From positions 1 to 61,311 of IMG/VR virus record IMGVR_UViG_3300043399_000562: DNA of 61,311 nt; one strand, 5' to 3'. This DNA is from a virus. Position 1 is the stretch's first letter; the number at the start of each line of letters is the position of its first letter. This document shows, one piece after another, positions 1,738 through 54,353 of the stretch. The notes below the pieces were generated by a model, which saw nothing but the letters and a program-made list of their open reading frames with translations, made no database searches and was not told the DNA's origin. Made by a program: the position numbers and the translations under genes.

Positions 1738-2139
1738 ATGAGCAATCAAGTCACCCCCATTCAGAACATCGCGTGGCAGTACGCGCCGGCAAAGCGTGCC
1801 GGCCGTTTCAGCGAGGGGTCGTGGACCTACCCGCGCCCTGGCTACGGTCGCATCAACATGCGGCTGCAGGAGGTCGTCGTTGACGAGCACGGAAACCCCA
1901 TCGTCATCGGCGATGTATCGCCTGTTCCGCTGTCGATGGACTTCACGCCTGCTGATCTGGGCGGCCCCAACCCGCTCGTGATCGTGTGGCACGACTATCT
2001 GACCGGATTGCCCGACCCGTCGCGCACCATGACCGCTGGTGAGTTCATGGGCTGGCAGTATTCGGCCGGACGCAGCCTCGTCGCGCGAACGCTCGATGCG
2101 ATGGTGCCGCCAGCGCAGGCCGAACAACAGCCCGAGTGA
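1738..2139 (+). CDS. Hypothetical protein of the portal-protease insert (133 aa)
   Basis: The ATG at 1738 has a clear GGGAGG Shine-Dalgarno. The protein is soluble, rich in Pro and aromatic residues, and has no transmembrane segment or motif that I recognise. It follows the fibre-like protein by 23 nt and precedes the papain-like peptidase by 4 nt, so it belongs to the same inserted block. A chaperone or small structural partner of the fibre is possible but nothing in the sequence shows it. Confidence 0.8.
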   Translation: MSNQVTPIQNIAWQYAPAKRAGRFSEGSWTYPRPGYGRINMRLQEVVVDEHGNPIVIGDVSPVPLSMDFTPADLGGPNPLVIVWHDYLTGLPDPSRTMTAGEFMGWQYSAGRSLVARTLDAMVPPAQAEQQPE

Positions 2140-2143
2140 TCCT

Positions 2144-2605
2144 GTGCTGATTGCGAGCTACACGGCGATCAGGCCCGGTGCTCAGGGTCTGTTCAACCGC
2201 GCTGTCAAGTTGGGGCTGCGCATTCCGTACAGCCACAACGAACTTGTTTTCAGCGACGGAATGAGCGGCTCGTGCTCTTTCATCGACCAGGGCATTCGAC
2301 TCAAGCGGATCGAGTTTCAGGACGACAAGTGGCATTTCAGGAAGGTCGATCCGCGTTTCAGTGAAGATGCCGCCCGTGAGTTCTTCGAGCGTCAGGCTTT
2401 GCTGCCGACAAGTGAGCGAATCAAGTACAGCATCCCGCTGCTCTTCACGTTCGTCTTTCCATACCTGCCAATCAACGCGTCGGACGATCGCGAAGTCTGC
2501 TGTACCTGTATCGGCCGGGCGTTGGGTATCGAAGACCACCGTCGCTACGACCCGTATGAACTGCCGCTGCATGTGGCCGCGCAGTCACCGAGTCACTTTG
2601 TTTGA
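2144..2605 (+). CDS. Putative permuted papain-like (YiiX/NlpC-P60 type) cysteine peptidase
   Basis: 153 aa from a GTG start at 2144, four bases after the previous stop. The N-terminus (ASYTAIRPGAQGLFNRAVK), the YSHNELVFSDG segment with a His, and a C-terminal EVCCTCIGRALGI segment with cysteines match the order expected in circularly permuted papain-fold enzymes found in tailed phages. Family members hydrolyse amide bonds in peptidoglycan or lipoproteins. Its place beside a fibre-like gene suggests a virion-associated wall hydrolase or a host-range accessory; this is inference. Length fits the family. Confidence 0.6.
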   Translation: MLIASYTAIRPGAQGLFNRAVKLGLRIPYSHNELVFSDGMSGSCSFIDQGIRLKRIEFQDDKWHFRKVDPRFSEDAAREFFERQALLPTSERIKYSIPLLFTFVFPYLPINASDDREVCCTCIGRALGIEDHRRYDPYELPLHVAAQSPSHFV

Positions 2606-2679
2606 ACCGCGGTTCAACGGATTGGTGATAGTTCACCGAGTTGGAATACACTCGCGATCGTCGATACGCAAGGCAGAAC

Positions 2680-3987
2680 ATGAGTGAATACGCAGCGCGA
2701 GAAGCACTGAGCCGCATGAACATGCGGGAGGTGGCCATTGCTCCGTCGTACACGGGCCTGGTTGCCGATCTGCAGTCGTTGGCTTCGGTGAGCCAGAAAG
2801 ACGGACACGAGCAGTTCATGTCCCGTCGAGCCGAACTCTGCGCTGCGATGGGTTTTGACGCTCCGGTCCAGCGAAAGCCGTTCGCTTTTGCTGAAGGTCT
2901 GGCCATCATCCCGGTCAGCGGGACGCTGATCAACCGCTTCAATGGCAGCTACGGCAGCGTCACCGGCTACAACTTCATTCGCAGTCAGGTGATGGCTGCG
3001 ATGGCCGACAGCGAAGTCGCCGGCATCGTGTTCGATGTGAACTCCTACGGTGGCGAGGCGGCCGGCTGCTTCGAATGCTCGGACTGGCTCTACGGTCTGC
3101 GCGGCCAGAAGCCCATGCTCTCGATCGTCGACTCGAACGCCTACAGCGCGGCCTATGCGATCCCCAGCGCGACCGATCGCATGGTCGTCACGCCCACGGG
3201 CGGCGCCGGATCGATCGGCGTCGTGGCGATGCACGTCAACATGGCCGGCATGCTCGACAAGTGGGGCATCGAGGTCAGCTACATCTTCAGCGGCAAGCAC
3301 AAGGTCGATGGCAACCCCTACGAGGCTCTGCCCGACAGCGTGCGGGCGAACATCCAGGCCGGTGTGGACAAGGGGCGCGAGCAATTCGCGTCGCTGGTCG
3401 ATCGCAACCGGAACCTGAAGGGTGGCACTGCGAAATCAACCGAGGCAGCAACCTTCCGTGCCGACGAGGCCCTCTCGCTCGGACTCATCGATGCCGTCAT
3501 GTCGCCGAACGAAGCGGCGGTGGCATTTCTCCGCGAGCTTTCCGGCTCGAAGTCTCAACCATCTCGAAAGGGATCATCCATGTCGAAAGAAGACACCGGG
3601 CCGGCCACGACGGACAATGCCGCTGCCGCCCAGAACGAGGTCCGTCAGGCCGAGCGTGCCCGCATCGCGGGCATCACCGGCTGCGACGAGGCCAAGGGTC
3701 GCGAGAAGCTGGCGAACCATCTGGCCCTGAACACCGACCTGTCGGTGGACGCGGCCAAGTCGATCCTCGCCGCCGCCTCGGTCGAGAAGGTCGAGCAGCC
3801 CGCCCCCGCGGCGGCGCCGAAGGCCGGCGTCAACCCGTTCCAGCAAGTGATGGACGCCAGCAAGCACCCGAACGTGGGTGCGGATGCGGGTGGCGCCGAT
3901 CAGGGTGACGGCATGACCGCCGCCCAGCGCATCCTGGCCGATCACGCGGCCATGACCGGCACCAAGTACGACAAGGCCAAGGCGTAA
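2680..3987 (+). CDS. Capsid maturation protease, S49 family (lambda gpC-like)
   Basis: 435 aa from ATG 2680 (an upstream in-frame TTG at 2641 exists but has no better ribosome site). The N-terminal two thirds is a ClpP/SppA-fold S49 peptidase: the segment NAYSAAYAIPSATDRMV carries the likely nucleophilic Ser, GGAGSIGVVAMH follows, and SGKHKVDGNP carries the likely catalytic Lys. The last 135 residues, rich in Ala, Lys and Glu, are the scaffold portion, also made separately from 3580. It lies directly upstream of gpD and gpE, as in lambda. Confidence 0.92.
   Translation: MSEYAAREALSRMNMREVAIAPSYTGLVADLQSLASVSQKDGHEQFMSRRAELCAAMGFDAPVQRKPFAFAEGLAIIPVSGTLINRFNGSYGSVTGYNFIRSQVMAAMADSEVAGIVFDVNSYGGEAAGCFECSDWLYGLRGQKPMLSIVDSNAYSAAYAIPSATDRMVVTPTGGAGSIGVVAMHVNMAGMLDKWGIEVSYIFSGKHKVDGNPYEALPDSVRANIQAGVDKGREQFASLVDRNRNLKGGTAKSTEAATFRADEALSLGLIDAVMSPNEAAVAFLRELSGSKSQPSRKGSSMSKEDTGPATTDNAAAAQNEVRQAERARIAGITGCDEAKGREKLANHLALNTDLSVDAAKSILAAASVEKVEQPAPAAAPKAGVNPFQQVMDASKHPNVGADAGGADQGDGMTAAQRILADHAAMTGTKYDKAKA
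3580..3987 (+). CDS. Nested capsid scaffold (lambda Nu3-like) from an internal start
   Basis: An in-frame ATG at 3580 is preceded by AAAGGG at a spacing of about 9 nt, and the polypeptide from there (135 aa, MSKEDTGPATTD...) is a charged, Ala-rich, largely helical tail with a proline-rich hinge. In lambda the scaffold Nu3 is made from an internal start inside gene C in the same way. The same residues are also made as the C-terminus of the protease. The internal ribosome site is what supports separate translation. Confidence 0.7.
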   Translation: MSKEDTGPATTDNAAAAQNEVRQAERARIAGITGCDEAKGREKLANHLALNTDLSVDAAKSILAAASVEKVEQPAPAAAPKAGVNPFQQVMDASKHPNVGADAGGADQGDGMTAAQRILADHAAMTGTKYDKAKA

Positions 3988-18186: not shown

Positions 18187-18929
18187 GCGGCGGCAGCAGT
18201 TCCTACGTTGCAGGCTACAGGTACTTCTTCGGCATTCACATGGGGGTCTGCCGCTCCGGGGACGATGGTGTCGATGAACTGGTCGAGGCCCGTGTCGGCG
18301 ACCGAACAGCATGGGCCGGCTCAGTCACGTCGAATCAGACCGTCGCTGTCGACGCCTACAACCTGTTCGGCGGTGAAGACGGCGAGGGTGGTGTGCAGGG
18401 GAACATGTGGGTGCTGATGGGCGGCAGTGCCCAACTCGCTCCGGACGAACTGGCCGAGATGACCAGCGGGGATGTGACTCAGGTCGGCAATGTTCCAGCC
18501 GAGCCTTCGTTGTACGACGTCACCGCGCAAGTCGAGAACCTCTATGGCTCGATCAGTCAGACTGCGGCAAGCGTGGTCCTGCGCTTTGCTGTCGACGGGA
18601 CGCTTCAGGTAGTGCTCAACGGCACCAATGGCGCTCGTACTGACTCGCTCACCGACCAGTGGGTCAACCGGTACGGTGAGTCTGTGCAGGTATCCCTGAC
18701 ACCGAGCGACTTCGAAGTGCGAGTGGCCACCGTGTCCGGTCCGACGCCCAATATCGGCGACACGCTGAACACATGGCTGTCGCTCAGTACGCAGCGGGAG
18801 TTCGGCATCTCTGGCATCGGCAGCGTAACCGTCGTCTCGGCTGAGGTGCGGCAGATCAGCACCGGGGCGAGCGCGTTTGCGCAGTACACGCTGGTCATCA
18901 GCGACATCTCGAATCCTGGCGGCGCCTGA
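18183..18929 (+). CDS. Tail hub protein, N-terminal portion plus an inserted beta-sandwich domain
   Basis: The first 95 residues (YRYFFGIHMGVCRSG... VQGNMWVLMGGSAQLAPDEL) are the usual N-terminus of the large phage tail hub protein. In relatives this continues directly into the part encoded here by the next gene. Instead, about 150 residues follow that look like an Ig-like or beta-sandwich module (SASVVLRFAVDGTLQVV region, then NTWLSLSTQREFGISGIGS), and the frame stops at 18929. The two pieces may assemble as a split hub. Start ATG 18183 overlaps the previous stop. Confidence 0.75.
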   Translation: MSGGSSSYVAGYRYFFGIHMGVCRSGDDGVDELVEARVGDRTAWAGSVTSNQTVAVDAYNLFGGEDGEGGVQGNMWVLMGGSAQLAPDELAEMTSGDVTQVGNVPAEPSLYDVTAQVENLYGSISQTAASVVLRFAVDGTLQVVLNGTNGARTDSLTDQWVNRYGESVQVSLTPSDFEVRVATVSGPTPNIGDTLNTWLSLSTQREFGISGIGSVTVVSAEVRQISTGASAFAQYTLVISDISNPGGA

Positions 18930-24850: not shown

Positions 24851-24857
24851 GTTAGGC
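24851..24857 (+). other. Integron core site GTTAGGC without a recognisable partner arm (cassette insertion junction)
   Basis: GTTAGGC(CCC) matches the attC R' consensus GTTRRRY and is identical to the R' boxes of the two complete attC sites at 25414 and 25751. No matching RYYYAAC arm is found to its left. This is what would be expected if cassettes inserted at a simple secondary G-TT site. The leftward gene ends with its stop codon exactly inside this box. Confidence 0.6.
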
Positions 24858-25070
24858 CCCATCTCGCAAGCCTCGCAAAAGCTCGATGCACTCTGCTTTT
24901 GTCAGGTTGTACGGGCTTGAGTTCAAGTGCTGAATTGCGAGCGTCAGCCCGTACTGCGCTTCCACATGGCCGGGGCGTTGTGCTGCTGGTTTCCTTGCTT
25001 CGCGCTCTGCCTTTGTCGGCACAAGGCTGCCCCAACCGGCGCCGTCTTCTATCTCTCCGCGCCAGCTCAT
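24852..25070 (-). CDS. Hypothetical protein (72 aa) ending in an integron core site
   Basis: ATG at 25070 overlaps the previous gene's stop (ATGA). The C-terminal part EAQYGLTLAIQHLNSSPYNL followed by TKAECIELLRGLRDGA is a compact helical sequence of a kind found in phage proteins of unknown function. Its TAA stop is formed by the complement of GTTAGGC at 24851, so the gene's end coincides with the recombination junction. Nothing indicates its activity. Confidence 0.75.
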   Translation of the reverse strand: MSWRGEIEDGAGWGSLVPTKAEREARKPAAQRPGHVEAQYGLTLAIQHLNSSPYNLTKAECIELLRGLRDGA

Positions 25071-25255
25071 GCGGCACCTCGCAGCAGGCCCATCGCTTCC
25101 CAGATCTTCCGGCAGGCGTACTGCGCGGGCACGGCCTCGGCCTCTTCTTGCTCGTCCTCGAACGTGTCAAGGTAGCTGTCGGCCGTGGCTTCGAGCGCAT
25201 CGAACGCCTGTTGCAGCAGGCTCAGGGCTTGTTGGGTTTGTGCGTCAGCTTTCAT
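25067..25255 (-). CDS. Hypothetical helical protein (62 aa)
   Basis: Starts at ATG 25255 inside the end of the zinc-ribbon gene. The sequence is one long acidic helix (LSLLQQAFDALEATADSYLD TFEDEQEE) followed by YACRKIWEAMGLL. It overlaps the next gene by 4 nt. Not recognised. Confidence 0.7.
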   Translation of the reverse strand: MKADAQTQQALSLLQQAFDALEATADSYLDTFEDEQEEAEAVPAQYACRKIWEAMGLLRGAA

Positions 25256-25388
25256 CGTCTTCCTCTGCGTGGTCATCAAGGTCAAACACTTCTCCGCAGG
25301 CTGCGCAGCGTTGCAGCCGGTCGTCCTGCGGGTCGTCTTCATCGTCGTACTGGTACACGGTCTTGCAACCGCACTTTGGGCATGCCAT
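25245..25388 (-). CDS. Small zinc-ribbon protein (47 aa)
   Basis: ATG at 25388, 26 nt from the attC at 25411. Two CxxC knuckles are present (MACPKCGCKT and RCAACGEVF) separated by an acidic linker, and the protein ends in an acidic tail, HAEEDDES. A metal-binding nucleic-acid or protein adaptor is likely. It is the first of three overlapping genes in one attC-bounded segment. Confidence 0.75.
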   Translation of the reverse strand: MACPKCGCKTVYQYDDEDDPQDDRLQRCAACGEVFDLDDHAEEDDES

Positions 25389-25410
25389 CGTCTGCGCGCT
25401 CCGGGTAAGT

Positions 25411-25474
25411 GGGGCCTAACACTTCGCTCAAGCCGACAGCCTACGGCTGCGGCTGAATCCCGACGTTAGGCCCC
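25411..25474 (+). other. Integron attC recombination site (complete)
   Basis: Outer boxes GGGGCCTAAC (25411-25420) and GTTAGGCCCC (25465-25474) are perfect complements and fit R'' = RYYYAAC and R' = GTTRRRY. The spacers next to them do not pair, as in real attC sites. Inner boxes AGCCG-A-CAGCC and GGCTG-CGGCT pair except for one extra A on the left arm. The left half, ACTTCGCTCAAGCCGAC, closely resembles the same part of the classical aadA-type attC. By the extra-base position the site is oriented on the + strand, opposite to the ORFs around it. Confidence 0.85.
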
Positions 25475-25729
25475 TCGAATCGCATCACGTACTTCGCGCA
25501 GTGCATCCATCGTCCATTCGGCGGCCAGTTCGCCGGCTGCGCTGTTGCCGACCGGAACTCGATGCGCTTCCACAATCCGCGCGCACCGCTCACGCTCTGC
25601 AGCCTCTACAGCGGCAAGCCCTGCCAGCACTTCGCGCGAGATATTTGTCCGCAGTTGCTGGGTGTTCCCGTACTCCAGTGCAATCCACGCCAGCCGGCTT
25701 ACAAGCTCTCGCTTCTCGTGATCTTTCAT
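25466..25729 (-). CDS. Phage-type hypothetical protein (87 aa) in a single-gene attC-bounded segment
   Basis: ATG at 25729 lies 22 nt from the attC at 25751; the TAA stop is the complement of the R' box at 25465. The protein is helical (EVLAGLAAVEAAERERCARI) and ends with NSAAGELAAEWTMDALREVRD, a sequence type I know from phage proteins of unknown function. Gene, short leader and attC make a compact unit of about 370 bp, the usual size of an integron cassette. Confidence 0.78.
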   Translation of the reverse strand: MKDHEKRELVSRLAWIALEYGNTQQLRTNISREVLAGLAAVEAAERERCARIVEAHRVPVGNSAAGELAAEWTMDALREVRDAIRGA

Positions 25730-25750
25730 TTCGTGCTCCGTTCACCAATG

Positions 25751-25841
25751 GCCTAACGTCAGCAGTAAGCCGAAAGCGCCGGCAGGCGTGCTCAGTGTGG
25801 CTTCCTACTCGGGGCGCTTCGGCTTACTGCTGACGTTAGGC
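25751..25841 (+). other. Integron attC site, long and fully paired variant
   Basis: GCCTAACGTCAGCAGTAAGC and its complement at 25822-25841 begin a 22-bp perfect outer stem with R''/R' boxes GCCTAAC and GTTAGGC. Inside it, after one extra A on the left arm, AAGCGCC pairs with GGCGCTT, leaving a loop of about 30 nt. The extra base lies on the same side as in the site at 25411, giving the same + orientation. Pairing of the spacer is unusual for attC, so activity is less sure. Confidence 0.75.
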
Positions 25842-26099
25842 GCCAGGTGGCGTCGGCAGTGGCATCCAATGCGTCGGCGGTACTGGGTCGGGATCAGCAT
25901 CCGAAAGCAACTCGTCGGCCCACACCCAAAGGGCGTATCCATCGCCTTCAACCCACTTCATGCGGGCCTGTTCGCCGTTGTAGGCCCAAACCTCAGAACC
26001 GTCTTGCGGCGCAGTCTCGATTGGCTGCCAAGCGCAGATCGTCTCAAACCCTGCTTGCGCCACAGCGGCCAATGGCGGGTATGTCTTCTGCCATTCCAT
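25836..26099 (-). CDS. DUF551-like protein (87 aa)
   Basis: Chosen start ATG 26099 follows AGAGGTG; a longer start at 26129 is possible. The core WQPIETAPQDGSEVWAYNGE, then MKWVEGDGYALWVWADELLS and PTHWMPLP are the recognisable DUF551 pattern of small phage-borne proteins of unknown function. Its TAA stop overlaps the GTTAGGC of the attC at 25835. In a model where cassettes entered at this stop codon, this would be the native gene whose end served as target. Confidence 0.82.
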   Translation of the reverse strand: MEWQKTYPPLAAVAQAGFETICAWQPIETAPQDGSEVWAYNGEQARMKWVEGDGYALWVWADELLSDADPDPVPPTHWMPLPTPPGA

Positions 26100-26115
26100 A
26101 TTCACACCTCTGACT

Positions 26116-26247
26116 TCAGAAGGGCGCATCGACCCACTCTCGTTTAGGTTTACGCCTTGTCCGAGGCTTGGGCAGCGGCTGACCTTTCCAAGTGGGAAAC
26201 GGCCATTCCTTCGGAGGGCTCGGTTCCTGTTTAGTCGGACTCGCCAT
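26116..26247 (-). CDS. Small basic proline-rich protein (43 aa)
   Basis: ATG 26247 overlaps the stop of the sigma-like gene (ATGA). The peptide is rich in Pro, Lys and Trp (PPKEWPFPTWKGQPLPKP). No family recognised. The coupled start is the main support. Confidence 0.55.
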   Translation of the reverse strand: MASPTKQEPSPPKEWPFPTWKGQPLPKPRTRRKPKREWVDAPF

Positions 26248-53339: not shown

Positions 53340-54353
53340 TTACGCAGCAAGTAGCTGCCTTTCCCGCTCGATCAACGACTCGGGCCGCACATGCGTGTAG
53401 CGACGTAGCATCTTCCAGTCTCGGTGCCCGCTCACTAGCGCAACCTCGTGGATCTGAAACCCCGCCTCGAACATGCGGGTTATGCCTTCGTGGCGCAGAT
53501 CGTGAAGCACGACGTCCAGCACACCGGCCTTGACGGCAGAGTCGTGAAAGACCTTGCTCACATACATGGGATTGAGCGGCCAGATCCGCTTGTCTTGTCT
53601 TGGCAAGGTCAACAGCAGTTCGAACGAGCCCTGTAGCAGCGGTACATGCTGGTGGTTGCCGAACTTGCGCGTTGGGTGCTTCCTATCCCTGACAAGCACT
53701 GTCCTGTTCTCGATGTTCAGGTCGTCCCAGGTAATGCGGCAGACCTCACCGATCCGCATGCACGTCCATAGGCAGAAGTCTAGAAGTGCGGGGCCGTGGC
53801 CACGAAACCGCTTGGCCAGCTTCGACTTGATGGCTGTCAACTCCACATTGCTGACTCTGCGGTTTCGCTCGTTGGGACGACGTAGGTAGCCGCCGTCGAA
53901 GAGTTGTGCCTTAGACCGCTCGATGTCCTTCCATGGCACATCGATGCCCCAGTGGTACTCGGCCTGCTTCAGCACCCCGCACAGACGCGCTATGTGCCAG
54001 TAGGCAGTGCTGCCACTGACATCAGTCTGCTTGAGCACCCAGTCGATGAGGCCGCGTCCATGAAGGTCGGCTAGGGTTACTCCGTCGAACCTGTTCTTGA
54101 TTGAAGGGATGTCATGGGCGAGATGAGACGCGGCCATTTGGCGCTTCGGCCCGATCTCCGTCGCGTATCGATCGATGAGGTGTGTCAGCGACAAGCGACG
54201 ACTCGATACATCGATCGCTTCCAGATTCATTTCAACTTCGCGAATCCACTTCTTCGCCTCTTTGGCGGTTTCGAACGTCTTGCTCTGTTGGGGGTGGCCG
54301 GCCTTCCGAACCAGTGCTCTGAACTTCCCACCCCTGTTGACGATGGTTCCCAT
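53340..54353 (-). CDS. int: Tyrosine integrase
   Basis: 337 aa from ATG 54353, preceded by AAGGAG. Catalytic residues are visible: Arg in FCLWTCMRIGEVCRITW, Lys region before it, VVLHDLRHEGITRMF (HxxR), ALVSGHRDWKMLRRYTHV (G-H and the nucleophilic Tyr). The N-terminal part is the arm-binding and core-binding region. It directs integration at attB. It is not an integron integrase: the extra IntI patch before the second Arg is missing. Confidence 0.92.
   Translation of the reverse strand: MGTIVNRGGKFRALVRKAGHPQQSKTFETAKEAKKWIREVEMNLEAIDVSSRRLSLTHLIDRYATEIGPKRQMAASHLAHDIPSIKNRFDGVTLADLHGRGLIDWVLKQTDVSGSTAYWHIARLCGVLKQAEYHWGIDVPWKDIERSKAQLFDGGYLRRPNERNRRVSNVELTAIKSKLAKRFRGHGPALLDFCLWTCMRIGEVCRITWDDLNIENRTVLVRDRKHPTRKFGNHQHVPLLQGSFELLLTLPRQDKRIWPLNPMYVSKVFHDSAVKAGVLDVVLHDLRHEGITRMFEAGFQIHEVALVSGHRDWKMLRRYTHVRPESLIERERQLLAA

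Follow-up and report, generated by a model that had tools for sequence, protein, structure and literature searches.

Inverted gene cassettes between attC sites in a temperate-type phage genome that lacks an integron integrase

A run of small genes in a phage genome is punctuated by palindromes that resemble the attC sites of integrons, which raises the question of whether they bound gene cassettes and, if so, from where such cassettes come. The genome (IMGVR_UViG_3300043399_000562, 61,311 nt) was analysed over its whole length, here called the window. It is complete, because it carries a 127-bp direct terminal repeat, and we call the phage temperate in type because it encodes a tyrosine integrase; the initial annotation had described it in the same way. 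Its TerL is 56-58% identical to the TerL of Enc34-like phages, which we take to be Casjensviridae. We consider it quite probable that this temperate-type, Casjensviridae-like phage carries a two-cassette CALIN and that the CALIN is a member of a pool of inverted phage cassettes. The features are listed here by position.

24851 to 24857, + strand: lone core GTTAGGC at the far edge of the array (from sequence; part of GTTAGGCC at 24851)
24852 to 25465, no strand assigned: cassette 1, from G/TT to G/TT, with attC1 and the genes 25245-25388, 25067-25255 and 24852-25070, all on the - strand (borders from sequence; ORFs)
24852 to 25070, - strand: cassette gene, 72 aa, with its TAA stop within the lone R box (ORF)
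25067 to 25255, - strand: cassette gene, which probably starts with MKADAQ and overlaps the stop of the gene before it (ORF; coding score)
25245 to 25388, - strand: cassette gene, 47 aa, zinc-ribbon-like (phrog_10675, 2.1e-5)
25414 to 25471, + strand: attC1, 58 nt, canonical and aadA/sat2-like (41.5 bits with R1, 42.3 bits with R2)
25466 to 25835, no strand assigned: cassette 2, from G/TT to G/TT, with attC2 and the gene 25466-25729 on the - strand (borders from sequence; ORF)
25466 to 25729, - strand: cassette gene, 87 aa, of a phage family of unknown function (phrog_38634, 1.4e-9; 44 viral relatives)
25751 to 25841, + strand: attC2, 91 nt, atypical (23.4 bits with R1, 24.4 bits with R2; perfect inverted repeat)
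25836 to 26129, - strand: DUF551 phage gene upstream of attC2, with its TAA stop within the attC2 R box (PF04448, 7e-5; phrog_924)
53340 to 54353, - strand: tyrosine integrase of the phage itself, distinct from integron integrases (phrog_1, 2.1e-37)

All three elements by which the initial annotation had delimited two units, the two attC sites and the lone core, are in place. The sites were scored with two covariance models, R1, built from 14 attCs that come from plasmid integrons of classes 1 and 2 and from a single Nitrospira array, with no phage sites, and R2, built from 38 viral attCs with the window sites left out. With both models, which are our own (R1 is not the published model, so that its scores are no more than comparable with the 20-bit rule), the two sites score above 20 bits on the + strand, and the next best score elsewhere in the window is 14.5 bits. 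The covariance model recovers the TJE1 attCs tested with IntI1 in Qi et al. (PMC9892861), and it is not fully sensitive, because the P12002L attCs of the same authors were missed (best 12.8 bits). Scans with the filters off gave attC2 a background-level score, which we set aside as an artefact of the setting; such scans are unreliable for long sites, because a 96-nt site scoring 47 bits by default was missed as well.

The first site has the features of a canonical attC. Its core reads GCCTAAC...GTTAGGC, with R boxes that pair fully, spacers that remain unpaired and an L stem with an additional A on the left arm, just as first described. These complementary R boxes and this extrahelical base are accompanied by a marked strand asymmetry (41.5 bits on the + strand vs 12 bits on the opposite strand; E 1.7e-8 with R1 on the window alone), and attC1 is 76% identical to the sat2 attC. 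The recombinogenic strand of attC1 would be the minus strand, on which the genes lie as well. The second site had likewise been called a complete attC, and this stands by its score (E 0.003 with R1 over 227 kb scanned), although its structure is atypical: the spacers are paired throughout, and a single extrahelical base takes the place of the usual two, so that of the features of a typical attC, with central spacers left unpaired and two bases extrahelical, only the A23-type bulge remains. Its arms are perfect over 24 bp, the sole perfect inverted repeat of that length in the window, and it shares the extra A of attC1, placed right after AAGCCG at an equal distance from the R box. attC2 may be inactive. 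GTTAGGCC is found four times in the 61 kb, every copy at the borders of the locus, against an expectation of 0.71, and four copies were reached in only 1 of 100 shuffled sequences.

Hairpins that lie between co-directional genes, right at their stop codons, could also be ordinary terminators or RNA hairpins of an early operon that resemble attCs by convergence. We consider this very improbable. No T-run follows either attC hairpin, the attC score is strand-specific, and the extrahelical A and the spacing of the L box are conserved. Rfam and tRNA searches of the sequence gave no match. Moreover, such hairpins take part in a cassette swap: two near-identical phages, L047 and L082, differ in that L082 is L047 plus exactly one cassette, consisting of a gene and its attC, and in L047 the flanks of this extra cassette meet within the R box of an attC. 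The two are thus separated by the clean gain or loss of one cassette, and this indel together with the strand asymmetry largely refutes the terminator explanation. The initial annotation had named conserved ordinary terminators as the case against its own proposal, and that case is not upheld by the missing T-run or by the relatives of the 87-aa cassette gene, of whose 44 loci three have an attC.

The whole window lacks an integron integrase, as had been stated; the TIGR02249 profile matches only the phage integrase, with 23.5-29.8 bits against a cut-off of 265. A CALIN is recognised by at least two attCs on the same strand, within 4 kb and with at least 20 bits each (Qi et al., PMC9892861, and the survey PMC7370490). 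The window conforms to this rule, because its sites score 41.5 and 23.4 bits, lie on the same strand within 4 kb and are accompanied by no integron integrase. The proposal of a CALIN-type array carried by a temperate-type phage is therefore sustained, with scores from our own model, but it had overlooked the orientation of the cassette genes.

The cassette genes of the window are antiparallel to the polarity of the attCs, because the genes are on the minus and the attCs on the plus strand. The strand of the genes is backed by homology, with phrog_38634, phrog_10675 and DUF551 all matched on the minus strand. Read along the gene strand, a unit consists of the attC, then the gene or genes, then an R box with a stop codon, and three consecutive minus-strand genes (24852-25070, 25466-25729 and 25836-26129) terminate at a TAA inside a GCCTAAC R box; for the gene 25466-25729, this R box is that of attC1. 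The genes begin shortly after the sites, 22 nt past attC2 for 25466-25729 and about 25 nt past attC1 for 25245-25388, and neither of the two attCs of the window contains a Shine-Dalgarno sequence with an ATG. The longest ORF at the gene 25067-25255 spans 25067-25342, and the MKADAQ start was chosen from the ATGA overlap. The window therefore does not hold canonical cassettes, in which the gene has the same orientation as the attC and the attC is at its 3' end, but inverted ones, with an antiparallel gene and the preceding stop in the R box.

This layout recurs in dozens of uncultivated phages, sometimes with the start of the gene inside the attC. Searches of viral contigs with two exact left-half motifs yielded 22 stretches for one and 47 for the other, and a large terminase was found in 11 of the 18 attC-bearing viral records tested. 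Starts inside the attC, the comparison of cassettes in translation and PHROG matches served to judge orientation; ORF length alone was dropped, because shadow ORFs fill the opposite strand in GC-rich sequence. Of 157 distinct viral attCs, 32 hold an internal Shine-Dalgarno sequence with an ATG that feeds an ORF in the antiparallel direction, and none holds one for the parallel direction. When only sites of at least 80 nt are considered, an internal RBS and ATG feed an antiparallel gene in 31 of 68, against none in the canonical direction and against a mean of 3.9 and a maximum of 8 in 200 trials in which the loops of the long sites were shuffled; bacterial attCs have no such internal start (0/40). 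The translated comparison of homologous cassettes favoured the antiparallel frame in 20 cases and the parallel frame in one, with three ties, and PHROG matches were obtained for 5 of 10 antiparallel ORFs vs none of 10 parallel ORFs. At two loci the attC appears as a leader of the protein: L018 4088-4330 matches phrog_5768 from residue 23, the attC encoding about the first 22 residues, and L014 645-1010 matches phrog_21008 from residue 13, behind an attC-encoded leader. The stems of the viral attCs covary, with changes on both sides in 11 of 17 pairs, a score that is inflated because the sites had been filtered for pairing beforehand. The counts across phages are not counts of independent events, because the sites are related. 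Phage attC arrays also have other genes within or beside them (L010 83-835, L014 1081-1833 and L015 9719-10387), among them a PAPS reductase-like gene, a match to a queuine tRNA-ribosyltransferase PHROG and a DNA methyltransferase.

Orientation also bears on whether the phage took ordinary cassettes from the bacterial integron of a host. A host integron is possible, and attC1 does resemble the sat2/aadA attCs. Against such a capture, the genes of the window are antiparallel whereas those of the bacterial cassettes examined are parallel to the attC, and they belong to phage families. The closest attC left half, moreover, is present at no fewer than seven viral loci, and in 84,980 species genomes of bacteria and archaea it occurs in a single contig; this one contig, retrieved with a narrower form of the first motif, holds a bacterial-type array with parallel genes. 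We therefore regard a bacterial origin of this kind as improbable. One further locus, L023 (contig 2834908352), was discounted as a bacterial integron beside a prophage, with a full IntI and parallel genes.

The relatives of the window genes speak for a common pool of cassettes on which phages draw. Most of the viral relatives of the gene 25466-25729 lie outside attC arrays, yet its relative in L105 starts inside an attC, that in L114 has its stop within the R box of an attC, and that in L092 ends in the same GGGGCCTAAC. The gene 25245-25388 has a relative in L065 that is 67% identical and likewise lies directly behind an attC-like hairpin. This suggests that common phage genes have been turned into cassettes. 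The initial annotation had seen in the array a route for cassettes between hosts and phages; this is not borne out, and exchange within a common phage pool fits the evidence better than traffic from hosts to phages.

Megablast and searches with the tail, endolysin and exonuclease genes found no close relative of the window phage, with or without cassettes, nor did we find an empty version of its site, and the mobility of its cassettes is inferred from other phages for the former reason. This leaves some room for a history in which integron recombination brought the cassettes into an ancestor and the array is now fixed and decaying, its hairpins mere spacers between genes. The atypical attC2 with its paired spacers, a genome without intI and the absence of observed cassette movement in the window phage itself agree with such relics, but attC1 retains every canonical feature, at 41.5 bits, and the arrays of the related phages L047 and L082 show recent gain or loss. 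We hold the relic history to be possible, if doubtful, and prefer a CALIN that belongs to the inverted pool, at whose attC sites recombination would take place.

A possible source of integrase exists among the phages. Most attC-bearing viral records have no intI, and two (G024 and G048) encode full-length integron integrases, with 428 and 388 bits against the cut-off of 265, beside inverted arrays. In both, the polarity of the attCs diverges from intI, the cassette genes are read in the direction of intI, and behind them come intI, a DUF4224 protein and the phage integrase; L192 carries the same intI-DUF4224-phage integrase module, which makes three records in all. With all genes co-oriented, complete phage-borne integrons occupy 10117-13438 in L142 (G048) and 6558-10029 in L141 (G024). 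A scan with the G048 integrase gave 47 further viral loci; in nearly all of those that have attCs, the attCs are upstream of intI on the opposite strand, and internal starts number 8 antiparallel vs 0 parallel. Some of these loci may be bacterial integrons in mis-assigned contigs, because a large terminase was found in only 5 of the 20 records tested. About 50 viral loci (L143-L192) hold relatives of the G024/G048 IntI, most at 44-67% identity. When viral IntIs were compared with IntI1 and with one another, the identities were about 52-57% and about 50-69%, respectively. At 18420-18620, the contig of L015 (G011) matches the N-terminal portion of the integron integrase family with 63.7 bits, possibly a remnant of intI in an attC-bearing phage.

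We lean towards a native phage integron system, in which the cassettes are inverted, the attC acts as a portable translation start, and intI is either carried, as beside the DUF4224 protein and integrase in three records, or supplied in trans, as for the window phage, forming a phage-to-phage network distinct from the integrons of bacteria. In the inverted architecture of the pool, the attC sits 5' of its gene, with the gene antiparallel to it; the R box provides the stop codon of the preceding gene, and the RBS and start of the next come from the attC itself or from the few bases that follow it. A cassette in a phage operon would then be a unit ready for translation, expressed by co-transcription, and would need no Pc promoter, since the stop is given by the R box and the RBS and start by the attC. 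In phages that, like this one, lack intI, insertion and excision at G/TT would be carried out by an integron integrase in trans, from the host or a co-resident phage. If this is correct, site-specific shuffling of small early genes is open to phages, and a part of phage mosaicism derives from a known recombinase rather than from illegitimate recombination; the inverted layout would also answer the problem of how a cassette that lands in an operon is expressed.

CALINs in phage genomes and their recombination by IntI1 are already published in Qi et al. 2023 (PMC9892861), and the window resembles those CALINs as an attC cluster in a phage without an integrase. The two differ in that the TJE1 cassettes described there are parallel and canonical, whereas those of the window are inverted; the passages of that paper considered here carry no remark on inversion, R-box stops or attC-internal starts. 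In one spring-water phage of that set (MW202573, L091), the attCs are on the minus and the GenBank genes on the plus strand, and its CALIN is thus inverted. This CALIN extends over 2069-3739, and a CDS at 3721-3840 starts inside an attC. Searches of the open-access literature, outside which many journals lie, turned up no account of phage cassettes that are inverted or of attC-internal starts, and the inverted 5'-attC architecture appears to be undescribed so far. A metagenome cassette survey predicts ORFs only on the top strand of the attC and upstream of it (PMC7370490); inverted cassettes would escape it for that reason, which exposes a blind spot of the survey. The lone core GTTAGGC at 24851 is the remnant expected from attG insertion at a non-classical GTT, by the abstract of PMC12901181 and general background on attG sites. 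With class 1/2 mobile and sedentary chromosomal integrons, the phage arrays share the attC fold, the R and L boxes and the extrahelical bases, and G024 and G048 are like normal integrons in the divergent polarity of intI and attC. Unlike in those integrons, the genes of the phage cassettes are inverted and have the same orientation as intI, and in three phage records a DUF4224 protein and a phage integrase adjoin intI.
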